This document shows positions 9,191 through 30,868 of a stretch of DNA of 31,674 nucleotides, one piece after another. The notes beneath the pieces were generated by a model, which saw nothing but the letters and a program-made list of their open reading frames with translations, did no database searches and was not told where the DNA came from. Source of the stretch: a virus; IMG/VR virus record IMGVR_UViG_3300037348_000059, positions 1 to 31,674 of that record; one strand, written 5' to 3'. Within the stretch, counting starts at the first letter, position 1. Every line of letters begins with the position of its first letter. Both the position numbers and the translations under genes were made by a program.

Positions 9191-9315
9191 TCCCCACACT
9201 CTATTTTCGCTTGCTTCCCACGGCATGCTACTTCTGATATGGATTGCAACAATGTTGCTGCGCATGATGCTTGCGGCTTGTGCTTTCATCTTCCAAAAAC
9301 AGAGGTATCGCAGCC

Positions 9316-12300
9316 GTGGTCAAGAACGTCTTTGCACAATCCCCCGTCGATGCGGCCAACGAAACAGCCCGCAGTGTTCTTGGTGGAGCGGGTCGCACAG
9401 CCCCGCAGCGCGCCGCGCCGCCCCAAGCCCCCAGCACATATGACAGCGCCGCCTTGGCAAGCACCTATCAGGTGCCGCAGAACGTCATTGACGCCGTAGC
9501 GCAGACGTCCGGCATCCAAGACCCTGCCGAATTGGCCCAATTTGGCGACCGCTTTGCACGGACGATATCCGACCACCTGAAAAACGGCATGAAAATGAAG
9601 GACGCCATGACTGCGACCTTTGGCGAGGGCGAGGATCTGCAACCGATCCTTGATTTGGCCGTGAACCTTGCAGCCCCCCGCGATCCCGCACCGGCCCATG
9701 CAGATGGCGAACGGTCGCGTCTGGCCCAATCCTTTGAGCAGGGCATGGCATCTGCCACGGTGCGCGGCACGGACATGATGGTCGATATGTCTGCCTCGTT
9801 GGAAGAAGGCGCGCTTGGCCGCATGTTCTATGCCGCCCGCAAGAAGATCGGTCTTGATACAGACACTCCAGAGCAACGCGCGCAGGCATTGCGTGACGCA
9901 CCGCGTGGTGATGGCTACATCGCGGCCAAAGAAACCCTGGAGCGCCTTGATGCCGAGGGTTTCCAGATCGCAGACTGGCGAGACGTCCGTGGTCTGGGAT
10001 CGATGGTGTCCTTTGCCGCTGAAAACATCGCCACATCACTGCCACAGATGGGTGCGACATTGGCATCCGCTCCGCTGAGCGCACCACTCACAATCGCATT
10101 GCTGGGCGGTGAGGCCAACGAGGAATTGAAAGAGCGGACCGACCTTTCCGAAGCTGACCGCGTTGCAGTCGCGACCGGTGCAGGCACCCTGATGTGGGGT
10201 CTTGAGGTATTCGGTCTGGCAAAGGTGTTCGGCCCATTATTGCCGGGTCAGGTTGCAAAAAAAGCCTTGCGCGGCGAGTTGGCAGATCATCTTGTGCAGG
10301 GTGGCATCAAGCGCAGCGCCGCCCGCGTTTTGCAAGCCGCGGTTGCCGAAGGCAGCACAGAAACCATGCAAGAAGGCATTGTCATGGCCGCGACTAGCGC
10401 GTCTGGCGGTGAGTATACCCGCGACGAGGTAATGAAGCGCCTGACAGATGCTTTTGTCGCTGGCGGAGCAGCCGGTGGCGGTATCCGCGCCGGTTTGGAG
10501 CCAGTCGAAGCCGCGCGCGACAAGGTGTTTGGCCGAGGCGAACCGGCAGCCGCAGGCCCGACCGCAACTCTGGACGAGGTTCTTTCCGCAGCAGAGGCCC
10601 GCTTCAACGAGCTGACGGCGAAGGCGACGGGCGGTCAGACGATGGACCCCGAAACCGGCGAGGTTATTCGGACCAAAGGCGCAATTCTGACGGCAGAGGA
10701 AAGGGCCGAACGCGACTTCCTTGGTCAGAACATGAGCAACCCCGATGTGCTGGCGCAGGCCGCAGGCGTGACGATCATCGAACCGCCGCAGGCCGAGGCA
10801 CCCGCCGCAGTCGACCCGCAGACGGGCATGCCCCCGCAATCACCCAGCGCCGTTGTCCCTGCACCGGAAGCGCCGCCCGCTGGCCCCATGAGCCGCGCCG
10901 CGATGGCGGCTGGCCCACAGACGCGCCCTGACCTGAAACCGGACAGCAAGGTTCGCATTGCCATCCAAGGCGGCAACCCTGTCGAAGCCGTGTTCAAGGG
11001 CGAGAGCGGCGGCAGTCTCAATCTGGAAGTGAACGGAGAACGGGCGATCATCAGCCCCGAAATGATGGCGTCAGGCCAGTTTGAAATCACACCAATCGAC
11101 GCACTGGCCGAAGCGGCAAGGCCCGAGGCAACCGGCCTTGAGGATCTGGGCGAAGTCGCGGGCGCTATGGGTGGCAACCTGCGCGATATGCTGTTTGCAA
11201 AGGTCGAGTCAGGCGACACGACAGAGAACGGCGCAGCATCACCGATCTTGCAGATGGCAAAGCTGATCAAGACCAACGGCGGAACAGTCACCCGCAACGA
11301 TCTGGACGCGATCAACACCTTGACAGATGAAGTCATGGCTCTGCCGGTGGATAAGCGCAAGGCGGCCGCACTGGAGCGCGCAAAGGGCTGGACGCCAGCA
11401 CCGGCACCAGAGGCAGCGCAGGCCGAAGCAGCCAAGCCCTACAAGCCGCGCGAACCCAAGTTGATGAAGCGGCCCATGACGACGCAGATCAAATACATCA
11501 CTGGCGGGATTGATCCAGGCGGCAATGTTGGGCTTGAACTGAAAGCGCGCGGGATCACAGCGCAGACGCACCCCGGCCTATTCCGCATCGGAGGCCGCAA
11601 TGATCTGGACAACCTGCCGGAATCGGAATGGCGCGAGTATGGGGCCGCCGTTGAACTGGACGGAAATGGCTATGTCAGCCAGCAGTGGATCATCGACAGC
11701 ATCGAGGCCGAGGCGCGCGGAGAGCCTATCCAGAACACTGAACAGCAGGCGTTGCAGCAGATCCGCAATGCTAAACTGGAGAAAGACGATTACGAGGACC
11801 AGCTTGCGAACGGAACCGTGCGCGAGGACGTGGCTCCCGCGCCACTGCCGCCGATGGACCGCTTCTCATACATCGATGAAGCCAGCCGTGGTGACATGAT
11901 CGACCGGGAGATTGCCAAATTCGAGCAAGACACCGGCATGACACTGACCGGCGCCGAACGCGCCTTTGTGACGCTCAATTTCACAGAAAATGAATACAGC
12001 ATCGAGGATAGCATGTATTCATTCGGCCAACAGCAGATTGACGAGGGGTATCTTGATGAAATCGACCGACCAGAAAACAACGTCCCGTTCGGGGACGAGC
12101 CTGACGCCGGAACAGCGGCGCGCGATATCGAAGGAGAGCCGGAAGAAGGCGCGGGCAGTGATCAACGACCCCGCAGCCCCGCCGGAACTGAAACAGCGGT
12201 CGATGCGGATGCTCAAAATGATGAACGCCCTGGACCGCAGGACGGCGCCGAAAGCGTAACGCCGCCCGCGACCGAGCAGACACCCGAAGGTGAGCAAACA

Positions 12301-15300
12301 CTGATCGAGGGCGTGAAGCCCGTCACCGACCGCGACCGGCTGGAAGCGCAGGCGAAGAAGCCCAAGCGCGGCGGCGATGCTGCAACGGACTTTGGCCTGT
12401 TTGACACCGGCGCGCGGGACCAGACCGACATGTTCGCGGATGGCACTGCCCCAGCGGCCAAAAAGCCCACAGTGCCAGAACCGAAGCTTCAAGACGGCTG
12501 GCCAAACACGCTGATCAAATCCCGCCATGCGGCCAAGCAGGTCGGATTGACCAGCGAGGCAGTCGGTGACGCATGGTCGAACAAGGACGCGCTGATTGCC
12601 GCCGTTGATGCGCGCCTGAAAGTTCTCGGTTTTCCCGATCTGGTGTCGCAGTTTGCCAAGCCCGAAAACAGTCGCCCACCAATCGGTTCGCCAGAATACA
12701 CGCTGATCGACGCCATGAACGACCTGATGGACATGCAGGCCGAAGAAGCCGCGCAGGGCATGATTACTGACGGCCGCTTGGGATCAAGGATCGACGGGCA
12801 AAAGGCTCTGGTCAAGCGCATGCAGAAGGAAGCCGATGATCTGGCCGGTTCCGTGGCCGAGGCAGCATCAGATGCCGACCCGACGCCGACCGAGGGGCAG
12901 AAGGAAGCCGGAAACTATCAGCTTGGTCACGCGATCTGGAACGGGCTGCACCTGTCCATTGAGAACAAAAAGGGCAGCACCCGCAGCAAGACGACGCCAG
13001 ACGGCAAAACCGCTTGGTCAGTCGTGATGCCTGCGCACTATGGCTACTTCAAAATGACCAAGGGTGCGGATGGCGATCACGTCGACTTCTACATGGGCGA
13101 CGTGGAAACGTCCGACTATGTGATGTGGATCGACCAGGCAGATGCTGAAACCGGCAAGTTTGACGAACACAAGATCATGGTGGGGTTCACATCGCGCGGT
13201 GCGGCGCTGGCCGCATACCGTGCTGGGTTCAGTGATGGCAAAGGCAACGACAGGCTGGGCGGGTTCTTTGAGGGCGATGTGGCGCAACTCAAGGCATGGC
13301 TGGAAAGCACGTTAGATTCCACGCTCAGCGCCAAGAAGCCCGTCAACGGCGCACTCACATTCCCGTTCAAAGAGAAGCCCGTTGCAGCCGCCCAGATCGA
13401 GGCAGCAAGCGAACCCAAGATGCCAAAGGGTTATATTTTGGGTAGTGTTGTAAAGCTATCGAAGTCGCGGGCAGAAATGTCGGCTGGCGATGTTGACGCC
13501 AGCAGCGGTAATTGGGTGGAGGGCGATTACAAAGCAGTCATTTCAAGAGATAATCCATACTCGGTGGTTGGCGGATACGGCAAGACCCGCAACGAGGCCA
13601 TTCAGGACGCCGTAAAACGCGCGCTGCGCAAAGAACCAGATGCACCAAAAAGCGATCAGGCAAAACCGGCCGCGACTGGTATCCTTTCCGGCTTGTCGCA
13701 GGCAAAGCAGGACCGCGCCGCCGAGTTGAAAAAGCGGCTGGCCGACAAAGCCCGGACCCAGACCAGCAGCGGGCTTGATCCTGAATATATCACGCTTGGC
13801 GGCGAACTGGTCGCGCTCTACATCGAGGCGGGCACCAAGCGTTTCGGCCAGATGCTGCGCGACTTTGCAGAGACGACCGGCCTTTCCATGCGTGAGGCGC
13901 AGGCACCGATGCGCGACGCCTACAACCACATTCGCGACGAAATGGACCTTGATGGCAAGGACGTGTCCGACATGGATAGCGCCACCGAAGTCATGGCCGA
14001 TGTTCGCGCCGCACTGGCAGAGGCACTGGCAGAGGCAGACGCACCGGCAGTGGCCCCAGAGGCAACCCCAGCAGCGACACCAGCCCCAACCGGCAACCCG
14101 CTGGCCGACAAGCTGCGCGCCTACGCTGACGGCGATCTGGTGCAGCACACGACCAAACGCGGCAGGGTCTTGTCTGGTTATATCCTCAAAGGCGTGACCA
14201 AGGACGACGCCAAGAAGATTGACGAATACACGTTCAGCAAGGATGGCGGTTTTTTCATCCGCGAGAATGACGCCGCGCAATACTTGGCCGAAGCCGAGGA
14301 CGCAGCCACAGACGCACCAGCGGCGCAGCCGGAAATGGTTGGCGAAGCCTTTAGCGAGCAGAGCGAACAAAGCCAGACCAGCCAGCAGGCAGAGTCTAAA
14401 CCCAACGCCATATCTGGCCCCGACACTCGCATCGAACGCCTGCGCCTTGTTGATCACTTCGCAGAACGCTTGCTGGCTGGTGATGGCTATTCAACGATTG
14501 TCGTGGCCCGAAAGCAGGCCGAGTCCGTTCTTGGCCGGTCACTGACCGAAGCCGACTTGAAGATGATCGAGGAATCCATCGAAAGCGGGATCGTGAAGGC
14601 AGCCCGCGACATTGTGCGCCAAGGCAAAAATGCGGCCGTAACGTTTGACGCGCTGGTCGACCTGTATAAGCGCCAGCCCAAGCTGGCACAGCGCACGTCC
14701 ACGTCCATTGAAATGCAGGCTTACTCCACACCGGCGCCGATGGCCTTTATAGCGTCGACTCTGGCTGGTATCGCACCAGACAGCACCACGACCGTCTACG
14801 AGCCGACCGCCGGAACGGGCATGCTATTGATGAACGCGGAACCGGCCAACATCACGGCCAACGAGTTGCAGACTTCGCGCATGGTGTTGCTATCCAGCAT
14901 CTATGCCGGTGCCGATCTGCGCAACGGCGATGCAATGCTGGATACCCCGCCGAGCGGTGTCGATGTGGTCATTGCCAACCCGCCGTTCGGCAAGGTCAAA
15001 GACGCCGATGGCCGCAACAAGGAATGGGGCTTTGAGGGATCGACCGGCACGACGACCGAGGTCGACCACGCCATTTCCATGCGCGCACTATCTGCGATGG
15101 CCGACAATGGCCGCGCCGTTCTGATCGTCGGTGGACACCAGGGGGATGCCGACGCGCGCAAGCAAAGCTATCGGACTCCGAAAAACCGTGCTTTCTGGAA
15201 GAAACTATACGATAATTATAATGTGACCGAGCATTTCACGCTGGATGGTGGGCTTTATTCCCGTCAGGGCGCGGGCTGGCCGGTCGATGTGGTTGTGATC

Positions 15301-18300
15301 GAGGGGCGTAGCGCAAGCCAAAAAGCGTTGCCTATGAAAGAAGCGCCGACCCTGTATGGCGCATGGGATGAACTGAAAGGCCGCGTCGATGGACGACTTG
15401 ATAGCTTGGACCCCAGAGGGGGCCGAACCGCAGATAGCGATGGCACTGTTCAATCGCCCCAAGGGGGACTTGACGGAGGATCAGTATCTGGACGGCCTGC
15501 TACGCCGGTTCAAGATGCTGGTATCGGAGGAACGCCAACAGGGCAGCAATCCGCTGGCACAAGCGCAGGCTCTGATGCAACAGTGGGACGGCCTCGACCC
15601 ACAGCGGATGGAGGACGTGCCGGAAATGCTGGTGGCGTCGGAAACGCTGCGAACCCTTCTGCCGATGCATCTGTTCCCAATTCCGGCAGCGCAAATCAAG
15701 AACAGTCTGGACGACCGGCGGCTGACCAAACAAATGACCTTTTCGGACCTCCTAACGGCGATCTACCCAACAGCGTAAATCCTGCCGTCAAGACGGTAGA
15801 TCGGAACAACACCGAAGCTGAAACCGACTTTCAGGTTCAGTATTCGCCGCGCTCGAACGCGCGCTTTGCCGTTGGCACACTGGTTCCCAAGAACGTCGCA
15901 ACAGCCGTGGGTCAGGCGCTGGCCAACCTTGCCGACCGCGTGGGCGATATCGATACCTACGTTGCGAAAGAGTTGGGCTATACGCTCGATGAAATGCTTG
16001 GGACCGACAGCAAGCCCGGTTTTTTCTCTGCCGAACAGGTGGACGCCATTGCGCTCGCAATCAGCAATGTGAGCGAAAACGCGGGCTTCATCATCGGGGA
16101 TCAGACTGGTGTGGGCAAGGGCCGCATTGTTGCGGGCATGATCCGGTATGCGCTGCGCCAAGGTAAGACGCCGGTGTTCTTCACGGTCAAGCCGGGACTG
16201 TATGGCGACATGATGCGCGATCTGCGCGATATCGGGTCTGGCGACCTTCTGCCATCAATCATGGTGACGAACGAAGGGCTGCGCGCAGGCGAGGCCGTGC
16301 CTATTTCATCGAAGGCGGGCGACGTGATTTCGTCAGGCACACCGGCAGAACAGAAGGCCGCGATCAGGCACATGATCAACAGCAATAGGCTTCCCGATGG
16401 CAAGGAAGTGCTGTTCACGACCTACGACCAGATGAACACGCAGAAAGGCCAGCCGACAGACCGCATGCGGGCGATGATGGCTATTGCCGACAATGCCATG
16501 TTCATTCTTGATGAAAGCCATGAGGCTGGCGGTTCACCGGCTGGAGCGCGCAGCGCAAAGGACGCGGCAGAACCGCGATCTGTGTTCATGCGCAGGCTGT
16601 TGTCCGCATCCCCGAACGGCAAGATGTTTTCTTCCGCGACCTTTGCGAAAAACTCGACCGTCATGTCGCTCTATTCGTCCACCAACATGAAGAACGCACT
16701 GCCAAGCGAGGCGCAGCTTATCAGCGCCGTAGAGCGGGGCGGTGACGCGCTCTTGCAGGTGATCAGTTCAGGACTGGTGCAGGATGGTCAGTATGTGCGC
16801 CGTGAGCGGACATACGAGGGCATCAGCATGACGATGCAGGTGCTGGATTCCGACCCGATTTCCGCAGAGAACGGCGCGCTGGCTGTGCGTGAAATCTTCA
16901 TGCTGGATAATCAGTATATGGAGGGCGTAAGAGCCGCATATATCGACAATCTGGAAAGCGAAGGCGGCGGCGGCGGCGCTGACAATGCGATTGGCGAGTC
17001 CGGTGCATCTTCCACCAACTTTTCATCGACAATGCACAATGTCGTTTCGCAGTTGCTGTTGTCGATCAAGGCAAAGGAGGTCGCAGACAAGGCGATCCAG
17101 CTTCACAAGGATGGCAAAAAGCCGATCATCGCGCTGTCCAACACCAACGCATCGATCATCGACGACTATGTGCGCGACCGCGATCTTTCGCTGGGCGACA
17201 CTCTTACCGTGCCGTTCAATGAGATACTGCGCCGGTATCTGCAACGACTGCGCCGCATCACGATCAAGGACGAGGACGGCAACAAGACGCACCACTACCT
17301 GTCGGACGCAGAAATCATTGAGTTTGGCGGCGGTGTCGCATTGGACCAGATGCGCGCGACCGAACGCCTGATCGATGAATTGGACTTGGGCGATCTGCCT
17401 GGTTCGCCCATCGACTTTATCCGCGACAGGATGGCAGCCGCTGGCGTCGTCGTCGGTGAAATCACAGGGCGCAGCAAGGTGATCGAGAACGGCGTCCTAT
17501 CGACCCGCAAGGGAGGTCAGGCAGAAAACAAGCGGATCATGAACCGCTACAACTCTGGTGCCGTAAATGCGCTGATCATCAACCGATCCGGCGCGACCGG
17601 ATTTTCGATGCATGCGACAGACAAGGCCGACAATGACGGCAAGGTTCGTGCCATGCTGATCTTGCAGCCCGACAACAACATCGACATTTTCATGCAGATG
17701 CTTGGGCGTGTGAACCGGACGGGCCAAATCGTTCTTCCCGAATACTACATCATGGTTTCCGATCTGGCTGTTGAGAAGCGGCCAGCCGCTCTCTTGATGA
17801 AGAAGCTGGCAAGCCTGAACGCATCGACCACGGCGAACAAGAAATCAGCCGTGATGATGGAGGACGCGCCCGACTTCATGAACAAATACGGCGATAAGGT
17901 CATTCAGCAGTATTTGCGCGACAACCCCGAAGTCTCGATGGCGACCGGCGTTGATGCACCGGGAAATGATGCCTTGTCGGGCATCGCCGCAAAGCTAACC
18001 GGCAAGCTGATCATCATGGGGCCAAAGCGCACCGAGGAAATATACGAGGAAATCGAGGCGGCATATTCCAGCTATATCGAGGAACTGAACAGCCTTGGCA
18101 CCAACGACCTTGAGGCCACCGTTCTTGATGTCGATGCGCGCACCGACACGTCCGAAGTGATCGAAGCCGGAATCGCCACCAATAGCGCGTTCGGTCAGGA
18201 TACCGTGCTTGAAAAGGTCAACATGAAGATCATCGGCAAGCCATACACTGCCAAAAAGCTGGCGGAACTGGTGGACGAGAAGCTGGACGGGAAAACATTG

Positions 18301-21300
18301 GCAGCGTTCACCGCCGATCTGTCCAAGCAGCTTGACGAAATGTTCGCCACCCACGTTTCCGGTGACGTCGCGCGGCGGGCTGATCTGACGAAGCGATTGA
18401 AAGACGCCAAAACCGACAAGCAAAAGGACAACGCCGCCGACCTGATCCGCCGCCACGATGTTGCCGTGACCGAAAGCGCGGATCGTTTCAGGGAGGTCAA
18501 AGACAAGATCACCCGCGAGTTTGCCCCCGGCAGGCCGATGATGGTGCGCTTCCTGAAAAACGGCGCGACGGTCGATGTGATTTATGCCAAGTCTCTGGGC
18601 GTCGATCTAAGCCGCCTCAAGGGCAACCCAACGGCGGCGTCGCGCATATCTGTCAAGATTGCTCTGGCATCACCAGCGCGCCAGATTACACGGTCCCTGT
18701 CCAGCACGATGGACAAGTCCAATGATGCCGACATTTCCTTTGAGAACGCGCGTGACGAGACGGTTGATCGGGCATTTGAAAGCGGTCAGGCCGAGTCCCG
18801 CGAGGAACGCGAAATCATCACCGGAAACGTGATCAACGGCTATGCCAAGTTTGGAGGTTCGGGGCAGATCGTATTCTTCCGGCGCGACAACGGCGAGTTG
18901 GCCCAAGGCTTGCTTATGCCGAAGGATTTTGACGCGAAGAAAGCGATGGAAGGCCATGCGAAGATTTTCCGCACCATCGACCAGGCTGTTCGGTTCGTTC
19001 AGACGGCGGGCAACAACAATGCTCCGGCCATCTTGAAAACAGCCGACGAAGTAATGACCGTGCAGCGGCAAGCCGCGGCACCAGACACGTTCCTTCTGAC
19101 CATCGAGCGCAAGCGCGGCCACAAGCCCTATATCCTGAACAAGACAGTTACAGGCATGCTGGGCGAGTTTTCGTCGCGGTCTGGTCCGTTCAAGAAATAC
19201 GTCTACGGCATCGATCAGTTGTCGGCGGTGCTGGCCGAATACGAAGCCAGCATCGGCACCGAGTATCAGGCACCGGCGTTCAAGGACGAGGCGCAGGCGA
19301 TCATCGATGCAGACAACGTGCCGCCAGACAACGCGCCGCCAGATGGCGGCACGTTGAGCGCCAAGGTAGTCCGCACAGCGGACCCGAAACCCATGTCGTT
19401 CGCGGATCGTCTCAAGAAGATCGACAAGGGTGGCGTCACGCAACTCCACCGCGAACTGCGCGCGGAGTTGAAAGCCTTGGGTGTCGACCACCGGATCACG
19501 CTCGACGTGCAGCCCGATACGATCAACTTCCCCAATCTGGACCCGATGGACGGGTATTTCTTGGATACGGCCATTGGTGAGGGCGTGATCGGTGTTTCGG
19601 CAACGGCTGAAGAAGGGCCGAAAGGTGTCCTGCGCCACGAAATCATCCACGCCCTTCGCCGCCCTGAATTGTGGGGCGGAACACATGGCCTGTTCACCGC
19701 AGAAGAATGGAAAGCACTGGTGTTCGCAGCCCGCAAGGAAACCGCGCTGCGCGCAGAGGTCGATGAACTCTACCCAAATCTGGCCGAGGCGGGGAAGAAC
19801 GAGGAAGTGATTGCCGAAATGTTCCGCATCTGGTCGGACCGGCGCGACCAGATGGACGCGGCGCCGGCTGTTAAAAAGGCGCTGGCGCGGATCGGGGAAC
19901 TGATCGACGCCATCGTAAGGGCGCTTCGCAAGAACGGGGCCAACGATGCGGCCGCCGTGTTTGAGAGCATCCGCAGCGGCAAGATGGGGGGCCGCGATCC
20001 GCAGGGGCCAGGCGGGGCGCGCGGGGCGAAGCAGGGCAATTCCACCAACGCCCCGAGCGACGGCACATTGCAGGCCAAGCGTAAGAAAAGCGGCCCACGC
20101 GGATTTGAGGGCGCACCGAGCGTCTTTGCATCCGGCTACAAAGATGGATCGAAAACGCTGGTCACAAACACGCTCACCGAGGTCATGTCGGACAGGTTTG
20201 GCGCGAACATTCTGGCGCTTGTGCCGGGTCGCCCCTTGCTGGAAGAAGTGGCGCGCGGACTGCCATCGGCCAAGACCTATCTCAAAGCCAAGATGGAAAT
20301 GGATTCCCTGCGCAATGAAATGCATGCCGCAACGGACAAGCTGGCGCAAAGCTGGCGGAAGCTGGTGACAAGCAACAAGGCGCAGAACAGCAAGATGATG
20401 GACCTTATGCATGACGCCACCATTGCGCAGGTCGATCCGTCAGGCCCGTTCATGGCGATCATGGAACCCCGCGATGCCGATATCATGCGCATCTACAAGA
20501 AGCACACGGAGGAATATAAAGCCGCAGCTGCGCGCAAGGCCAAGCACGACCGCAACAAGGCGGCCTATGCCGAGTTGCGGCCACGCTACGATGCCCTGCC
20601 GCCCAGCTTCCAAGCGATGTTCGTCAACGTGCGAAACGCCTACACCAACATGGCAAACGAGTTTGAAAAGGCGGTTGAAGAAAACGCCGCAAAGGCCATG
20701 ACTGTCTCGGTGCGCCGCGCTGAACGCGCCTTTGATCGCAATGTCGAGAAATTCCGCGATGATGGGTTGACCGGCGACGTGTTGCAGGATGCGATCGACG
20801 GCGCCCGCCGCGAGTTGGAGACGGCCAAGGCGCAAAAGCAATGGTCGAAAATGGCCCGATTGCAGCAGCTACGGCAGCGATTTGAGGCAAACCGGATCGA
20901 AGGCCCCTACTTCCCGCTATCGCGGTTCGGGGATTTCTTTGTGACTTCGCGCGACGAAAACGGCAAGGTTGTCAGCTTTTCGCAATTCGAGAGGGTAGCC
21001 GATCAGAAGGCATATGCCGACGAAATGCGCAAAGAAGGTCTGAACGTCGAAACCGGCGTGATGAAGGAATTGCAGGCGCGCGAAGTGGTCGATCCCAACT
21101 TTGTGGCCGATATCGAGGCTTTGCTTGAGGGGATCAGCGCAGATTCTGCCGTCATGGATGCAGTCTGGCAGCAGTGGCTTATGACACTGCCGGATCAGTC
21201 GATGCGGACCAACCGTATCCACCGCAAGGGACGGCCGGGGTATGATGGCGATGCTTTCCGCGCATTTGGCAAGCAGATGTTCCACGGCGCGCACCAGCTG

Positions 21301-23001
21301 GCGCGACTGAAATACGCGCTGGACCTGACCGAAGCCCTCGATGAAATGCAAGGGCAGGCTCGCACCGCGCCAGATCCCGAGCGCGCTGGCCTTGTCTTGC
21401 GTGAAATCGGCAAGCGTCACGAATACACGATGAACCCCAAGGGTTCGGCATGGTCGCAGAACCTGACCAGCACAGCGTTCATCTTCTATCTGGGGATCAC
21501 ACCGGCAGCGGCCATTGTGAACCTGACCCAAACCACAGTGATCGGCTCCGCCGTTCTCGGCGCATATCAGGGCGGGGCCAAAGGGCCGGTTGTTGCTATG
21601 CGTGAATTGTCGAAGGCTCTGGTAGACTTCACGGGCGGGTTGGGCAGCAGCGATCCCGACCACAGCCCTGGGGCCATGACCAGCGCCCGCGTCACGGCGG
21701 AAGAACGCGCCGCGCTGGAGGAAGCCTATCGAGGGGGCATCATCGACAAATCGCAGGCGCATGACCTTGTGGGTGTCGGTGAAACCGGCGTGGAATACAG
21801 CCCCGCGCGCACGAAGGTCATGGGCTACATTTCGTTCTTCTTCCACCACGCAGAACGGGTAAACCGCGAGGTCACATTCCTTGCGGCCTATCGCATGGCA
21901 AAGGCCAAGGGTCTGGACCAGCAGGGGGCGATTGAAAAGGCGGGATCACTGACGTTCAAAACCCATTTTGACTATGCCAACACGTCGCGCCCACGCCTTA
22001 TGCACAACGATTATATGAGGGTGCTTTTGGTTTTTAGAAATCACAGCATTAACATGCTCTATCGCCTTTTTCGTGATACGCACCAGTCGGTTAAGGGTGA
22101 CACCCCTGCGGTCAGGGCAGAGGCGCGGGCGCAGCTTATCGGCATTTCGGCGCAGCTTTTGCTGCATGCCGGTGTGAAAGGTGTCTGGGGCTATGCGATC
22201 ATTATGAGCCTGATCGGTTTGTTCTTCGCTGGCGGCGAGGACGAGGCCGAGGAAGAAATGGAGAAAACATTGCTGGCGTTCCTGCCGCGCGATGCAGTCG
22301 GCATGCTCTTGAACGGCATACCCGGCCACCTGACCGGAATCGACCTGCGATCACGCATCGGCTTCCCTGAATTGTGGTTCCGATCCCCTGACCGCGAGTT
22401 GGAAGGCAGCGACCAGTATTACTATTGGGCATCGCAGTTGCTTGGCGCGATCCCTGAAATCGCGCACAGGGCCGTGCGCGGGGCCGATATGGCGGGGGAA
22501 GGCTTTGCGAATGGCGATTTCTGGGCCGTCATGCGTGGTGTTGAAACGGCATCGCCCAAGTTTCTGCGCGATATAATCAAGTCCGGCAGATACGGCGTTG
22601 AGGGTGCCAAGACGTTCAACGGCGATCCGATCATTGACGACTTCCGCACCGGCGAGTTGATCAGCCAGGTGATCGGGTTTACTCCCGCGCGCCTGTCTGA
22701 ACGGTATGACACAAACCGGCGATTGAAGAACGCAGAGGCGCGGATCACGGACGAGCGCCGCGCGATCATGGGCCAGATCGCGGATCAGATCATCGACGGC
22801 AAGCAGATCAGCGCGGCAAGCCAACGTCGCTGGGACGCCTACAACGCGGCGAACCCAGATTACCCGATCACACCGGCCAACCTTCGCCAGTCGATCCGCA
22901 GCAACGTCCGATCCAGCTTGCGCAACGAGTTTGGTATCCAGATCAACCCGCGCCTGAATGACAGGCTGCGAGAAAATGCAGCGGGGCCTATTTCGCGCTG
23001 A
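9316..23001 (+). CDS. Giant polyvalent protein: ejection, pyrophosphatase-like, N6-MTase, DarB/Sno helicase, zincin, PLxRFG
   Basis: About 4,561 residues from GTG 9316 (AGAGG 10 nt upstream; the frame opens at TTG 9271 without a ribosome site). In order: hydrophobic, Gly/Ala-rich membrane-interacting segment about 230-330 (AAENIATSLPQMG, EGSTETMQEG); linkers; inorganic-pyrophosphatase-like polyvalent domain about 1190-1333 (GNYQLGH, GDHVDFYMG, FDEHKIMVGF); small polyvalent domains about 1486-1550 and 1610-1650; N6-adenine methyltransferase about 1700-2010 (EPTAGTG from 1829, NPPFG 1888-1892); strawberry-notch/DarB-type SF2 helicase about 2160-2900 (Walker A TGVGKG with K2268, DESH from 2399, LGRVNRTGQ 2796-2804); zincin with HEIIH 3441-3445 and a downstream NEEVIAE; PLSRFG 3867-3872; and a C-terminal TM segment near 4285-4305. 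Such proteins are known to be injected and to protect DNA from restriction. Two linkers contain overprinted genes. Confidence 0.9.
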   Translation: MVKNVFAQSPVDAANETARSVLGGAGRTAPQRAAPPQAPSTYDSAALASTYQVPQNVIDAVAQTSGIQDPAELAQFGDRFARTISDHLKNGMKMKDAMTATFGEGEDLQPILDLAVNLAAPRDPAPAHADGERSRLAQSFEQGMASATVRGTDMMVDMSASLEEGALGRMFYAARKKIGLDTDTPEQRAQALRDAPRGDGYIAAKETLERLDAEGFQIADWRDVRGLGSMVSFAAENIATSLPQMGATLASAPLSAPLTIALLGGEANEELKERTDLSEADRVAVATGAGTLMWGLEVFGLAKVFGPLLPGQVAKKALRGELADHLVQGGIKRSAARVLQAAVAEGSTETMQEGIVMAATSASGGEYTRDEVMKRLTDAFVAGGAAGGGIRAGLEPVEAARDKVFGRGEPAAAGPTATLDEVLSAAEARFNELTAKATGGQTMDPETGEVIRTKGAILTAEERAERDFLGQNMSNPDVLAQAAGVTIIEPPQAEAPAAVDPQTGMPPQSPSAVVPAPEAPPAGPMSRAAMAAGPQTRPDLKPDSKVRIAIQGGNPVEAVFKGESGGSLNLEVNGERAIISPEMMASGQFEITPIDALAEAARPEATGLEDLGEVAGAMGGNLRDMLFAKVESGDTTENGAASPILQMAKLIKTNGGTVTRNDLDAINTLTDEVMALPVDKRKAAALERAKGWTPAPAPEAAQAEAAKPYKPREPKLMKRPMTTQIKYITGGIDPGGNVGLELKARGITAQTHPGLFRIGGRNDLDNLPESEWREYGAAVELDGNGYVSQQWIIDSIEAEARGEPIQNTEQQALQQIRNAKLEKDDYEDQLANGTVREDVAPAPLPPMDRFSYIDEASRGDMIDREIAKFEQDTGMTLTGAERAFVTLNFTENEYSIEDSMYSFGQQQIDEGYLDEIDRPENNVPFGDEPDAGTAARDIEGEPEEGAGSDQRPRSPAGTETAVDADAQNDERPGPQDGAESVTPPATEQTPEGEQTLIEGVKPVTDRDRLEAQAKKPKRGGDAATDFGLFDTGARDQTDMFADGTAPAAKKPTVPEPKLQDGWPNTLIKSRHAAKQVGLTSEAVGDAWSNKDALIAAVDARLKVLGFPDLVSQFAKPENSRPPIGSPEYTLIDAMNDLMDMQAEEAAQGMITDGRLGSRIDGQKALVKRMQKEADDLAGSVAEAASDADPTPTEGQKEAGNYQLGHAIWNGLHLSIENKKGSTRSKTTPDGKTAWSVVMPAHYGYFKMTKGADGDHVDFYMGDVETSDYVMWIDQADAETGKFDEHKIMVGFTSRGAALAAYRAGFSDGKGNDRLGGFFEGDVAQLKAWLESTLDSTLSAKKPVNGALTFPFKEKPVAAAQIEAASEPKMPKGYILGSVVKLSKSRAEMSAGDVDASSGNWVEGDYKAVISRDNPYSVVGGYGKTRNEAIQDAVKRALRKEPDAPKSDQAKPAATGILSGLSQAKQDRAAELKKRLADKARTQTSSGLDPEYITLGGELVALYIEAGTKRFGQMLRDFAETTGLSMREAQAPMRDAYNHIRDEMDLDGKDVSDMDSATEVMADVRAALAEALAEADAPAVAPEATPAATPAPTGNPLADKLRAYADGDLVQHTTKRGRVLSGYILKGVTKDDAKKIDEYTFSKDGGFFIRENDAAQYLAEAEDAATDAPAAQPEMVGEAFSEQSEQSQTSQQAESKPNAISGPDTRIERLRLVDHFAERLLAGDGYSTIVVARKQAESVLGRSLTEADLKMIEESIESGIVKAARDIVRQGKNAAVTFDALVDLYKRQPKLAQRTSTSIEMQAYSTPAPMAFIASTLAGIAPDSTTTVYEPTAGTGMLLMNAEPANITANELQTSRMVLLSSIYAGADLRNGDAMLDTPPSGVDVVIANPPFGKVKDADGRNKEWGFEGSTGTTTEVDHAISMRALSAMADNGRAVLIVGGHQGDADARKQSYRTPKNRAFWKKLYDNYNVTEHFTLDGGLYSRQGAGWPVDVVVIEGRSASQKALPMKEAPTLYGAWDELKGRVDGRLDSLDPRGGRTADSDGTVQSPQGGLDGGSVSGRPATPVQDAGIGGTPTGQQSAGTSAGSDATVGRPRPTADGGRAGNAGGVGNAANPSADASVPNSGSANQEQSGRPAADQTNDLFGPPNGDLPNSVNPAVKTVDRNNTEAETDFQVQYSPRSNARFAVGTLVPKNVATAVGQALANLADRVGDIDTYVAKELGYTLDEMLGTDSKPGFFSAEQVDAIALAISNVSENAGFIIGDQTGVGKGRIVAGMIRYALRQGKTPVFFTVKPGLYGDMMRDLRDIGSGDLLPSIMVTNEGLRAGEAVPISSKAGDVISSGTPAEQKAAIRHMINSNRLPDGKEVLFTTYDQMNTQKGQPTDRMRAMMAIADNAMFILDESHEAGGSPAGARSAKDAAEPRSVFMRRLLSASPNGKMFSSATFAKNSTVMSLYSSTNMKNALPSEAQLISAVERGGDALLQVISSGLVQDGQYVRRERTYEGISMTMQVLDSDPISAENGALAVREIFMLDNQYMEGVRAAYIDNLESEGGGGGADNAIGESGASSTNFSSTMHNVVSQLLLSIKAKEVADKAIQLHKDGKKPIIALSNTNASIIDDYVRDRDLSLGDTLTVPFNEILRRYLQRLRRITIKDEDGNKTHHYLSDAEIIEFGGGVALDQMRATERLIDELDLGDLPGSPIDFIRDRMAAAGVVVGEITGRSKVIENGVLSTRKGGQAENKRIMNRYNSGAVNALIINRSGATGFSMHATDKADNDGKVRAMLILQPDNNIDIFMQMLGRVNRTGQIVLPEYYIMVSDLAVEKRPAALLMKKLASLNASTTANKKSAVMMEDAPDFMNKYGDKVIQQYLRDNPEVSMATGVDAPGNDALSGIAAKLTGKLIIMGPKRTEEIYEEIEAAYSSYIEELNSLGTNDLEATVLDVDARTDTSEVIEAGIATNSAFGQDTVLEKVNMKIIGKPYTAKKLAELVDEKLDGKTLAAFTADLSKQLDEMFATHVSGDVARRADLTKRLKDAKTDKQKDNAADLIRRHDVAVTESADRFREVKDKITREFAPGRPMMVRFLKNGATVDVIYAKSLGVDLSRLKGNPTAASRISVKIALASPARQITRSLSSTMDKSNDADISFENARDETVDRAFESGQAESREEREIITGNVINGYAKFGGSGQIVFFRRDNGELAQGLLMPKDFDAKKAMEGHAKIFRTIDQAVRFVQTAGNNNAPAILKTADEVMTVQRQAAAPDTFLLTIERKRGHKPYILNKTVTGMLGEFSSRSGPFKKYVYGIDQLSAVLAEYEASIGTEYQAPAFKDEAQAIIDADNVPPDNAPPDGGTLSAKVVRTADPKPMSFADRLKKIDKGGVTQLHRELRAELKALGVDHRITLDVQPDTINFPNLDPMDGYFLDTAIGEGVIGVSATAEEGPKGVLRHEIIHALRRPELWGGTHGLFTAEEWKALVFAARKETALRAEVDELYPNLAEAGKNEEVIAEMFRIWSDRRDQMDAAPAVKKALARIGELIDAIVRALRKNGANDAAAVFESIRSGKMGGRDPQGPGGARGAKQGNSTNAPSDGTLQAKRKKSGPRGFEGAPSVFASGYKDGSKTLVTNTLTEVMSDRFGANILALVPGRPLLEEVARGLPSAKTYLKAKMEMDSLRNEMHAATDKLAQSWRKLVTSNKAQNSKMMDLMHDATIAQVDPSGPFMAIMEPRDADIMRIYKKHTEEYKAAAARKAKHDRNKAAYAELRPRYDALPPSFQAMFVNVRNAYTNMANEFEKAVEENAAKAMTVSVRRAERAFDRNVEKFRDDGLTGDVLQDAIDGARRELETAKAQKQWSKMARLQQLRQRFEANRIEGPYFPLSRFGDFFVTSRDENGKVVSFSQFERVADQKAYADEMRKEGLNVETGVMKELQAREVVDPNFVADIEALLEGISADSAVMDAVWQQWLMTLPDQSMRTNRIHRKGRPGYDGDAFRAFGKQMFHGAHQLARLKYALDLTEALDEMQGQARTAPDPERAGLVLREIGKRHEYTMNPKGSAWSQNLTSTAFIFYLGITPAAAIVNLTQTTVIGSAVLGAYQGGAKGPVVAMRELSKALVDFTGGLGSSDPDHSPGAMTSARVTAEERAALEEAYRGGIIDKSQAHDLVGVGETGVEYSPARTKVMGYISFFFHHAERVNREVTFLAAYRMAKAKGLDQQGAIEKAGSLTFKTHFDYANTSRPRLMHNDYMRVLLVFRNHSINMLYRLFRDTHQSVKGDTPAVRAEARAQLIGISAQLLLHAGVKGVWGYAIIMSLIGLFFAGGEDEAEEEMEKTLLAFLPRDAVGMLLNGIPGHLTGIDLRSRIGFPELWFRSPDRELEGSDQYYYWASQLLGAIPEIAHRAVRGADMAGEGFANGDFWAVMRGVETASPKFLRDIIKSGRYGVEGAKTFNGDPIIDDFRTGELISQVIGFTPARLSERYDTNRRLKNAEARITDERRAIMGQIADQIIDGKQISAASQRRWDAYNAANPDYPITPANLRQSIRSNVRSSLRNEFGIQINPRLNDRLRENAAGPISR
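12056..12259 (+). CDS. Nested +1-frame gene inside the giant ORF (67 aa, basic)
   Basis: This reading frame lies entirely inside the giant gene, shifted by +1. Its ATG has GAGGGG 7 nt upstream. The product is basic and helical, with the coherent segment LTPEQRRAISKESRKKARA followed by PAAPPELKQRSMRMLKMMNAL, while the giant frame here is an acidic Pro/Glu/Asp linker. By hand count 55 of 68 nested codons end in G or C, against about 36 of 68 in the giant frame, so the nested frame looks more like an ordinary gene of this phage. I do not recognise a family; size and charge would suit a nucleic-acid-binding or inhibitor protein, which is inference. Confidence 0.55.
   Translation: MKSTDQKTTSRSGTSLTPEQRRAISKESRKKARAVINDPAAPPELKQRSMRMLKMMNALDRRTAPKA
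15389..15778 (+). CDS. Nested +1-frame gene inside the giant ORF (129 aa)
   Basis: A second +1-frame gene, between the methyltransferase and helicase domains of the giant protein. The ATG has AAAGG 8 nt upstream. The product looks like a compact helical protein: LTEDQYLDGLLRRFKMLVSE, NPLAQAQALMQQWDGL, VPEMLVASETLRTLLPMHLF and KQMTFSDLLTAIYP. The giant frame over the same bases is a featureless Gly/Ala/Ser/Pro linker rich in GGA and CGA codons. By hand count 94 of 130 nested codons end in G or C, but only about 50 of 130 in the giant frame. This inversion of codon bias is strong evidence that the nested frame is under selection. No family recognised. Confidence 0.65.
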   Translation: MDDLIAWTPEGAEPQIAMALFNRPKGDLTEDQYLDGLLRRFKMLVSEERQQGSNPLAQAQALMQQWDGLDPQRMEDVPEMLVASETLRTLLPMHLFPIPAAQIKNSLDDRRLTKQMTFSDLLTAIYPTA

Positions 23002-27170: not shown

Positions 27171-28259
27171 TTACTTGGACCGCCGGTTGATCGCTATGAC
27201 CGCGCTTTTCTGGTGATCGGGCGAGTGATGGCCGTAGACGCGCTCGATGGTGTCAACGCTTGTCCCGAAGTATCCCGCTGCATCCCAGATCGTCGCGCCG
27301 TTTTGCAGCGCCCAGGTTATCGCGGTGTGCTTGAGCGTGTGCGGCGTCACGTCTGACAGATCGAGGTCGATCCCGCGCGCCCGCGCCATGTCCTGCGCGA
27401 CCTGCTTTGCGTTCTCCCATCCCTTGCGGATATCGCCCACACGGTTGCCCCTGTGATCCTCGACCACGAACCGGCGACCCTTGGCGGCCTGCCGCCGCAG
27501 CCGCGCCAGATAGACTGTTGGCAGGCGGGCAGGCGTCTGGCGCTTGGCGGTCATTACCTTGCCTTGTGGCTTGCGGTAGAGGACGCCTGAGACCGTATCG
27601 ACGTATCCGCCGTGGATCGTCGGCATGTTGATGTGCAGATTTAGGATCGTCTGCTTCCGGCTGCCGGTGTAGAGGCCGCACAGGATGAAATAGGCGAGGT
27701 GTCGACCATCGATGCGCAGGGACCGCGCCGCAGTAAGCAGGAACGCCGTTTCCTGCCGTGTCAGCCACCTTTCGCGGGGCGCAGGGCGCGCGGGCAGGAC
27801 AACCGCTGGTGCGGCTGTCAGATAGCCTTCCTTGAAGCAGTGATTGATCGCGGCGCGCAGCGTTCCGAGTTCACGGCGCACGGTGCCATCAGAGGCACCG
27901 CGTTCGCGCGCATATCGGCGGCAGGTTTCGCCACGGATCGAGGATATGGGCTGTTCGCCCCAGAAGCGGTATAGCGCATCGATCGCGTAACCGATCCGTT
28001 CGGGGCTGGCGACGTTGACCGCGTGTTCTTCGCCATAGAGCGAGAGACACCGGCCAACCGTCATTTCATCGGTTGAAGCTGGACCAGCTGGGCGGTGTTT
28101 CCGCTCAATGTATTCCGAGAGGGCTTTTTCAGCTTCGTCGCGGTTGTCAGTGCCGGTGGAGACGCGCGCCGTGCCGTCCCTGATTTGCCAGTAGGAATCG
28201 CGCCCGTAGGCTGATCGGTCGATCCAGAACAGTCTGGCGCTCTTGGCCCTACGCGACAT
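27171..28259 (-). CDS. int: Tyrosine site-specific recombinase (integrase)
   Basis: A 362-residue tyrosine recombinase. Residues 1-55 form an arm-binding-like N-terminus (WQIRDGTARVSTG), 65-150 the SAM-like core-binding domain, and 165-362 the catalytic domain. Visible catalytic residues are R201 in YTGSRKQ, a candidate Lys at 239, H307 and K310 in HTLKHT, and the nucleophile Y342 in ERVYGHH. The usual second Arg is Lys here, and the usual late His is T333 (YFGTS). I recall the same variants in other alphaproteobacterial phage integrases. The gene points toward the tRNA-derived core 70 bp away and is the last gene of the leftward operon. Its start is overlapped by the excisionase-like gene. 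Confidence 0.92.
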   Translation of the reverse strand: MSRRAKSARLFWIDRSAYGRDSYWQIRDGTARVSTGTDNRDEAEKALSEYIERKHRPAGPASTDEMTVGRCLSLYGEEHAVNVASPERIGYAIDALYRFWGEQPISSIRGETCRRYARERGASDGTVRRELGTLRAAINHCFKEGYLTAAPAVVLPARPAPRERWLTRQETAFLLTAARSLRIDGRHLAYFILCGLYTGSRKQTILNLHINMPTIHGGYVDTVSGVLYRKPQGKVMTAKRQTPARLPTVYLARLRRQAAKGRRFVVEDHRGNRVGDIRKGWENAKQVAQDMARARGIDLDLSDVTPHTLKHTAITWALQNGATIWDAAGYFGTSVDTIERVYGHHSPDHQKSAVIAINRRSK

Positions 28260-29343: not shown

Positions 29344-30863
29344 GTTAAAACATCTCCATCTGGAACGCCGGTTGCGTCTCCACTACTGGCGGCTCCCAAA
29401 TCCAAGGACCGGATGCCGTGGGCAGCCGAGAGAGTGCGCCACGCATATGCTGCCTGAATTGGGACCACTCCGTTGCCGAGCAAGCGCAAAGCGCGTGACC
29501 TGTAGGCCAGCCCATCAGCCACGTTACGAAGGCGGGATTGAGCCTCGCTTTGGTCCACCAATGCAGCCTCTTTGCCGACCAGCGTTGATAGCTGCGAGAG
29601 GCTTGATACGCCGCAGATGATGGGTTCGAGGGCTTCCGCCTGCTGGGCGGTGAGTATGGCCGCGAAATTGAGCGCGGTGGCTGCGGCATCGCGGCGCGCA
29701 AAAGATGGTGCGCGATCCGGGCTTGCGCCAATGACAGATCGCCATGCACCGGCGTCTCCCGGGCTGGGGGGGAAAAGCCCTGTTCCGCGCGATAGTCCAG
29801 TTGATCCATGCGGCTTTTGCCGTCCTTGCGGGTAACAGTCGGGCCGCCGCCCTTCTGGTCGCGGGATCTCGGTGTCGGCCACTTGTCCGCTGTCGTTTGC
29901 AGATCCTCGCCCCCCTGCTGGTTGCCGCTCACTCCATTCGCCGATTGGACACGAGGGCTGGGCCATTGGTTGACCTTCTGCGTCAGGCTGCTGCCAGACA
30001 TGCCATCCGTAATCCCAATCCCGCCCCTGTTGGCATCCGTCGCTGATGGCGTTGTCCACATTTTTGCTTGGTTCTCCAAGCCGACCTGCCCCTTGGTCCC
30101 ATCCATCTTCCGGCCTGTCAGTGTCATTCCTTCTGGCATCGACCGCCCGCCATTCGGAACGTCTGGCGTTTTCCAAAGCGCCCCCTGGCCCTCCAACGTC
30201 AGGCGCTGGCTGTCTTTGCAGCCTCGATCGCGTGTGTATCCCCCAGACACAGTTCGCGGCGTCTGCCACTGCGATATCACCGCGGTCAACGTATCCGCCA
30301 CGCCCCTGCCGTGCCGCATCCCCGCGGACTCCGAGTCCTCGGCCCTCGCGGTGGGCCACGCAAAACCAGCGTTGCCGTTCATGCGTAGCGCCGACTTCTT
30401 GCGCAGAGAATATGCCAGCCGCAGGCGTAAAGCCCATGTCGCGTAGTTCTCGCAAGACGGCTTCTGCGCCAAGACTGACGTGACCGGCGACGTTCTCAAG
30501 AATGATCCATCGCAATCCGTCGCCGAGTTCTCGGGCGACACGCGCGACGTGTGGCCAGAGGTGTCTGGGATCATCGGCACCCTTGCGCTGCCCCGCCATG
30601 CTGAACGGCTGGCAAGGATAGCCAGCCAGCAAGGTGTCGATTGCGCCAGCAAAGCGTGTGGCGTCGAATGTGGTAAGATCATCCCAGATCGGGGCGGGGG
30701 CGAAGTATCCGGCCCGCTGGGCTGCGATGATGGCTGATCGAGGGTATTCCTCCCATTCGACAAAGCAGCGGGTGTGGAATTGCGGCTCCGCAAGCAGGAG
30801 GCCCATATCAAGGCCACCGGCCCCGGCGCAGAGGGATAACCCGTTTCTGGGACGTGTTTCCAT
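29340..30863 (-). CDS. C5-cytosine DNA methyltransferase (frame A)
   Basis: A 507-residue protein from the ATG at 30863; in-frame GTG codons at 30875 and 30878 would overlap the upstream stop. Motif I LSLCAGAGGLDMG (9-21), motif IV PCQPFS with catalytic C84, motif VI ENV (123-125) and motif VIII QEVGATHERQRWF (155-167) are all present, and motif X LGNGVVPIQAAYAW starts at 462. Between VIII and X lies a long, variable, polar region with repeats of the VADA/VADT type instead of a compact recognition domain. It probably protects phage DNA from host restriction. The same DNA is open in a second frame over the same length. The stop is coupled to the next gene by ATGA. Confidence 0.88.
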   Translation of the reverse strand: METRPRNGLSLCAGAGGLDMGLLLAEPQFHTRCFVEWEEYPRSAIIAAQRAGYFAPAPIWDDLTTFDATRFAGAIDTLLAGYPCQPFSMAGQRKGADDPRHLWPHVARVARELGDGLRWIILENVAGHVSLGAEAVLRELRDMGFTPAAGIFSAQEVGATHERQRWFCVAHREGRGLGVRGDAARQGRGGYVDRGDIAVADAANCVWGIHTRSRLQRQPAPDVGGPGGALENARRSEWRAVDARRNDTDRPEDGWDQGAGRLGEPSKNVDNAISDGCQQGRDWDYGWHVWQQPDAEGQPMAQPSCPIGEWSERQPAGGRGSANDSGQVADTEIPRPEGRRPDCYPQGRQKPHGSTGLSRGTGLFPPSPGDAGAWRSVIGASPDRAPSFARRDAAATALNFAAILTAQQAEALEPIICGVSSLSQLSTLVGKEAALVDQSEAQSRLRNVADGLAYRSRALRLLGNGVVPIQAAYAWRTLSAAHGIRSLDLGAASSGDATGVPDGDVLT

Positions 30864-30868
30864 GCCAT
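29345..30868 (-). CDS. Second open frame over the methyltransferase gene, with W-x-T/S-P repeats (frame B)
   Basis: This frame starts in a TAATG overlap with the upstream stop, 5 nt before the frame-A ATG, and stops 5 nt before the frame-A stop; both are 507 residues. Its first 160 residues look like out-of-frame translation (Ser/Pro/Arg-rich). After that it has five W-x-T/S-P repeats (WQTP, WKTP, WTTP, WPSP, WPTP, each followed by a polar stretch) and from 443 LNPAFVTWLMGWP and CSATEW, both of which I know from phage methyltransferase proteins. In 29844-30059, 53 of 72 frame-B codons end in G or C, against 44 of 72 in frame A. It could be expressed alone, by frameshifting, or be a relic of an older frame. 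Confidence 0.45.
   Translation of the reverse strand: MAWKHVPETGYPSAPGPVALIWASCLRSRNSTPAALSNGRNTLDQPSSQPSGPDTSPPPRSGMILPHSTPHALLAQSTPCWLAILASRSAWRGSARVPMIPDTSGHTSRVSPENSATDCDGSFLRTSPVTSVLAQKPSCENYATWALRLRLAYSLRKKSALRMNGNAGFAWPTARAEDSESAGMRHGRGVADTLTAVISQWQTPRTVSGGYTRDRGCKDSQRLTLEGQGALWKTPDVPNGGRSMPEGMTLTGRKMDGTKGQVGLENQAKMWTTPSATDANRGGIGITDGMSGSSLTQKVNQWPSPRVQSANGVSGNQQGGEDLQTTADKWPTPRSRDQKGGGPTVTRKDGKSRMDQLDYRAEQGFSPPARETPVHGDLSLAQARIAHHLLRAAMPQPPRSISRPYSPPSRRKPSNPSSAAYQASRSYQRWSAKRLHWWTKARLNPAFVTWLMGWPTGHALCACSATEWSQFRQHMRGALSRLPTASGPWIWEPPVVETQPAFQMEMF

Follow-up and report, generated by a model that had tools for sequence, protein, structure and literature searches.

A probable overprinted gene in the methyltransferase-helicase linker of a DarB-like polyvalent phage protein

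The linker between the methyltransferase and the helicase of a giant phage protein very probably doubles as a gene. In the window (the whole stretch of DNA analysed, 31,674 nucleotides of the IMG/VR virus record IMGVR_UViG_3300037348_000059), the open reading frame at 15389-15778 lies in the +1 frame relative to the giant open reading frame at 9271-23001 (Table 1), and comparison with relatives makes us highly confident that it is a real, overprinted dual-coding gene. This confidence applies to the dual-coding gene; its function is graded separately. The preliminary description had proposed a separate gene overprinted in the linker, and this view is supported by selection, by a conserved start, and by nested homologues in 91 distinct sequences. 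The nested gene is old and widespread, selection on it is stronger than on the frame that conceals it, and its product is predicted to fold. One stretch of DNA would have two jobs, the second of which had been missed.

Table 1. Positions of the giant protein, its domains, its linker and the nested gene in the window
Feature	Position	Strand	Remarks
Giant DarB-like polyvalent protein, open reading frame	9271..23001	+	4,576 aa by ORF limits
N6 adenine methyltransferase domain match (PF02384) of the giant	14848..15129	+	aa 1860-1953
AAAGG, Shine-Dalgarno-like site of the nested gene	15376..15380	+	8 nt before ATG; inside methyltransferase end
Gly/Ser/Pro-rich giant-frame linker, methyltransferase to helicase	15388..15777	+	probable passenger frame, kept open
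Nested gene, probably overprinted	15389..15778	+	ATG...TAA, 129 aa, 14.7 kDa, pI 4.6
Strawberry-notch-type helicase N-terminal domain (AAA_34) of the giant	16015..16845	+	aa 2249-2525
Strawberry-notch helicase C-terminal domain (Helicase_C_4) of the giant	17449..17928	+	aa 2727-2886

Two reading frames in the linker

The giant frame matched PF02384, PF13872, PF13871, LPD39, InPase, a PLxRFG tail and the DarB-like family phrog_10089, and is predicted to encode a DarB-like polyvalent methyltransferase-helicase, with an N6 methyltransferase and an SF2 Strawberry-notch helicase in one chain. Phages L005 and L006 have extra giant segments of at least 100 residues after the nested stop, and phage L004 has one of at least 100 residues inside the helicase N-domain; these segments are absent from the window. 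On the minus strand of the window, a 580-aa open frame with an ATG start (18670-20412) is antisense to the giant open reading frame, probably as an effect of codon bias. A separate DNA methyltransferase-like gene (29345-30868) and an integrase-like gene (27171-28259), both also on the minus strand, suggest that the phage is temperate.

The GC content by codon position was 0.67/0.39/0.73 in the nested frame and 0.73/0.66/0.38 for the same bases read in the giant frame, matching an earlier hand count in which 72% of nested and 38% of giant codons ended in G or C. For the whole giant open reading frame, the values were 0.63/0.46/0.69. When 390-base windows were slid along the whole giant, this codon-position switch was unique to the nested stretch. 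Four other +1 open reading frames in the same giant (108-140 aa) did not carry the coding signature, as exemplified by 16985-17371 with values of 0.38/0.74/0.56. Shuffling of giant codons among synonyms, with results covering ten loci, left the nested frame open in 21% (own codons) to 65% (codon usage of the giant) of cases. With a chance of 20-65%, openness in one genome is weak evidence. An open +1 frame in a single GC-rich linker is not rare, and a claim of dual coding therefore needs relatives.

In 23 independent close pairs, divergence at the giant wobble position was 0.36 and 0.34 in the two flanks, but only 0.09 in the overlap, where the variable position was the nested wobble (0.21). 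An overlap-aware count in the style of OLGenie (PMC7531306), in a simplified implementation, gave a dNN/dNS of 0.27 (0.22-0.34) for the nested frame in the overlap; in the flanks, this frame had ratios of 0.74 and 0.77. For the giant frame, dNN/dSN rose from 0.20 and 0.10 in the flanks to 0.91 (0.79-1.04) in the overlap. These ratios show that the nested protein is under purifying selection independent of the host frame, as in an embedded gene, and that the amino acids of the linker are nearly free. Nested identity also exceeded giant-linker identity in every pair with more than 40% nested identity. The giant frame had been suspected to be the passenger in this stretch, and the frame-wise comparison that had been suggested as a check agrees: homologues keep the nested frame, and substitutions follow the nested wobble. 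Among close relatives, there was no case of a nested frame broken by stops beside a retained linker.

In the giant frame, it is mainly openness that is selected. With two broken, pseudogene-like copies (L126 and L131) set aside, the giant frame was open in all 91 sequences, compared to 15.8 expected when nested codons were permuted synonymously, indicating that the continuity of the fusion is selected. The linker thus matters as a connection and not through its own sequence.

The AAAGG that had been noted upstream of the nested ATG was confirmed; most relatives have a stronger site, AAGGAG. In 90 of 91 loci, a start could be assigned together with a Shine-Dalgarno site, mostly as AAGGAG-7-ATG, but this count alone is biased, because the start was picked partly on the Shine-Dalgarno score. 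We therefore also considered the giant Lys-Glu pair just before the start. It was encoded by AAGGAG in 64 of 67 loci, compared to 25.9 expected from the codon usage of each giant, and the largest of 20,000 simulations reached 41 loci. Since the loci are related, this comparison with the simulations does not give a strict probability. A conserved ATG and an AAGGAG beyond the expectation from codon usage show that the nested gene has initiation signals of its own.

In the proposed mechanism, ribosomes on the giant message would read the linker as an unstructured, Gly-rich tether from the methyltransferase to the Strawberry-notch helicase. Other ribosomes would start internally, at the Shine-Dalgarno site within the last methyltransferase codons, a translation that we infer from the signals above. 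The internal start would give, in the +1 frame, a distinct small protein that is acidic and folded, and whose amino acids are under selection.

Relatives and distribution of the nested gene

Direct tblastn queries of phage, plasmid and viral collections with the nested protein gave no match, and a pattern search with the nested alignment was impracticable, as the alignment is too variable. Since the nested protein itself finds nothing, relatives were fetched via the methyltransferase-helicase region and a helicase alignment. A cyanobacterial family member used as tblastn query gave one plasmid match, beneath an annotated helicase.

The closest five phage relatives were 46-71% identical in the helicase part. 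All five had a +1 open reading frame of 126-131 codons in the linker, with the common motif M..IAWTP...PLT...Y...L..R..RL and an FL.ALYP-like C-terminal end. An iterated profile, run on six frames of all fetched loci, identified 116 loci, corresponding to 91 distinct near-complete nested sequences. In all of them, with the exception of one frameshifted copy, the nested gene was in the +1 frame between methyltransferase and helicase. The exception, in Leptolyngbya sp. SIOISBB (L126, 5326-11304), is a probably decaying copy in which helicase and nested homologue share one frame, while the end of the methyltransferase is in a different one; an intact locus (L124) is present in the same genome. 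Among 80 viral loci, 69 matched the profile, 10 had, at the corresponding position, a diverged +1 open reading frame of coding composition, and the remaining one was cut by the contig end. In 85 aligned nested sequences, Trp7 was invariant, and Arg40, Pro97 and Leu118 were at least 90% conserved.

Carriers were found among alphaproteobacterial and other phages, prophage-like loci, a Thalassospira plasmid, and cyanobacterial plasmids and genomes. The cyanobacterial carrier proteins (about 2,000-2,500 aa) contain little beyond the methyltransferase-helicase dyad, indicating that the nested gene occurs beyond this phage and beyond giant polyproteins. Diverged +1 open reading frames were also present in the linker of Desulfovibrio loci. 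Three of them (L094, 5357-6001; L097, 5423-5971; L128, 5531-6031) were strongly diverged, with lengths of 167-215 aa and coding composition, and possibly encode a different or much altered nested protein. A Bacteroides phage provided a weak candidate. The nested gene was absent from the fused dyads of proteobacterial plasmids and of an Acinetobacter phage, and is thus not essential to every such enzyme. P1 DarB was considered as a carrier and rejected, as it had neither the motifs of this methyltransferase/helicase type nor a coding-like +1 open reading frame.

In 386 cyanobacterial and 385 alphaproteobacterial genomes, unbiased searches with the profile gave nine matches. All nine were nested within an open methyltransferase-helicase reading frame, and there was no standalone homologue among the profile matches from the 771 genomes. 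At unfused Bacteroidota loci, no standalone gene was recognised between methyltransferase and helicase. In a helicase tree of 72 rows, built by a quick method and with several plasmid rows dropped out, carriers of the nested gene formed one supported branch. Two changes account for its presence and absence on this tree, the second of them because of the Bacteroides phage candidate.

Long overlaps on the same strand are usually discarded by gene callers. The RefSeq gene caller independently called the nested gene on the Gloeobacter morelensis plasmid pGMOR1 (WP_230844304.1, "hypothetical protein"). The RefSeq helicase of this plasmid starts after the nested gene, with the methyltransferase-helicase frame open throughout. 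Around these two calls (L158, 2932-3381 and 3378 onward), the open methyltransferase part has no listed RefSeq gene, a gap that is probably a mis-annotation caused by the overlap. For Chroococcidiopsis, Picosynechococcus and Leptolyngbya, the large protein alone is listed, in a plasmid gene table that is incomplete.

The predicted product and its possible role

AlphaFold2 modelling of the nested protein with 84 related sequences gave a pLDDT of 93.4 and a pTM of 0.86, and predicted a short N-terminal beta pair followed by helices. A diverged short class of 12 sequences was modelled with a pLDDT of 91.9 and a pTM of 0.82. Its helix order was similar to that of the nested protein, with the beta pair absent, and a profile comparison supported a link between the short class and the main family (P 4.5e-5, probability 69%). 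Foldseek and VIA-align searches with both models identified no convincing PDB relative, and the window protein had no relative in BFVD. The best match of the short-class model, the N-terminal domain of CENP-N (Z 4.7), was too weak to use, and a PDB sequence match to eIF4G at E 0.26 was ignored. The window protein and four relatives matched no Pfam, PHROGs or NCBIfam family above the curated cut-off, and had no PADLOC match.

The small protein was never found on its own: all its occurrences are between the methyltransferase and the helicase, whether or not the rest of the giant is present. Its most likely role is therefore that of a partner or regulator of the methyltransferase-helicase dyad. 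We give this reading an even chance; the evidence for it is the location of the gene and the parallel with Rz/Rz1 described below. In phage JC1, a related DarB-like giant is part of the virion (PMC9144972), and incoming DNA is believed to be what proteins of the DarB type act on (PMC5512222). The same DNA would provide a separate dose of the small protein, which might, for example, hold the dyad in an inactive or correctly assembled state inside the producing cell until the dyad acts on DNA that enters. Against this reading, the overlap by itself could lock an unrelated gene in place.

Small acidic proteins of mobile elements are often anti-restriction proteins. The nested family, found in mobile elements, is acidic as well (median pI 4.44, net charge -10), and the product might be an anti-defence or host-takeover effector in its own right, sharing no more than DNA with the linker and possibly packaged with the giant, as the JC1 virion protein could suggest. 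We consider this unlikely. A free-standing form would be expected outside the linker, but the matches from the unbiased searches were all nested. Moreover, comparisons with Pfam, PHROGs, NCBIfam, PADLOC, PDB sequences and Foldseek revealed no similarity to known anti-restriction, anti-defence or defence families and no fold match. A co-delivered anti-defence factor, as suggested in the preliminary description, is possible but unsupported.

We judge it similarly improbable that the nested protein is an antidote, i.e. an inhibitor resembling a DNA mimic that shields the producer's own DNA from the methyltransferase-helicase. This would be a special case of a partner of the dyad. Acidity and tight linkage to the dyad would fit, and a separate start would allow an excess over the giant. 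However, acidity is common, and no DNA-mimic family or fold was found.

Other explanations concern the two frames themselves. The fusion might not be made; methyltransferase and helicase would then be two products, and it would be incidental that the giant frame is open over the linker. The RefSeq start of the Gloeobacter helicase and the nearly unconstrained residues of the giant linker point in this direction, but the giant frame is open far more often than expected under nested-synonymous shuffling, and in the window it has no Met codon between the nested stop and the start of the helicase domain. We regard this explanation as very improbable. Slightly less probable still is programmed frameshifting, by which the nested frame would extend the methyltransferase at its C-terminus and give a helicase-less alternative product. 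The nested frame is indeed open further upstream in some cyanobacterial loci. Yet 72 of 91 loci have a nested-frame stop at most 18 nt upstream of the conserved ATG with its Shine-Dalgarno site, which argues against entry by frameshifting, as does the conservation of AAGGAG at the synonymous level. A chance open frame arising from the Gly/Ser/Pro codons of the linker would agree with the frequent openness in single-genome shuffles, but is contradicted by the low dNN/dNS and the conserved fold and opposed by the Shine-Dalgarno and distribution results, so that we consider it practically negligible.

Returning to the partner or regulator of the dyad, a more far-reaching proposal is that of an unrecognised family that exists only in overprinted form, with a fold perhaps not in the PDB, that arose or was trapped once, before the phage-cyanobacterial split, and that regulates in trans, at a dose of its own, the enzyme whose tether is encoded by the same DNA. 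We put this proposal forward tentatively, at slightly less than an even chance. As to its origin, neighbouring methyltransferase, small-gene and helicase genes may have been fused by stop loss, trapping the small gene, or the small gene may have been born within a linker that already existed. The fusion route would be favoured by a standalone homologue or by three such genes in unfused arrangement, neither of which was found.

Comparison with known systems

To our knowledge, few long overlaps on the same strand have been proven in DNA phages and plasmids. The nested gene suggests that a gene can lie behind the "disordered linker" of a giant protein, and would add an overlooked component to the DarB-like methyltransferase-helicase dyad. 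Lost wobble variation in the giant frame, a GC3 switch and an internal Shine-Dalgarno site provide a signature with which others could be sought.

The giant frame belongs to the DarB-like polyvalent proteins with the methylase-helicase dyad, in which an N6 methyltransferase is fused to a SWI2/SNF2-related Strawberry-notch helicase in a large polyvalent protein (Iyer et al., 2017, PMC5512222). The text sections considered make no mention of an overlapping gene or of the linker, and none of the large-polyvalent-protein domains matched here corresponds to the nested protein. The view that a linker doubling as a gene had not been described for the polyvalent family agrees with our searches of the open-access literature, in which we found no description of an overlapping gene in polyvalent proteins.

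Ocr/ArdA-type anti-restriction proteins are likewise small and acidic, and are found on mobile elements near anti-restriction functions. Unlike them, the nested protein is always tied to the methyltransferase-helicase linker, and no sequence or fold match was found.

The closest parallel in arrangement is provided by phage lambda, where Rz1 is embedded in the +1 frame of Rz and the embedded product is a physical partner (PMC6139136). As in Rz/Rz1, the nested gene is a complete gene in the +1 frame of a phage gene with its own start, and genes of this embedded type are usually missed by gene callers. Rz and Rz1 are spanins, lysis proteins of the envelope encoded as an embedded two-component system, whereas the host frame here encodes a DNA methyltransferase-helicase, the product is predicted to be soluble and folded, and the outer frame is a nearly unconstrained linker. 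As far as our searches reach, the embedded gene is of a known kind, while its family, its place and its apparent fold are new.
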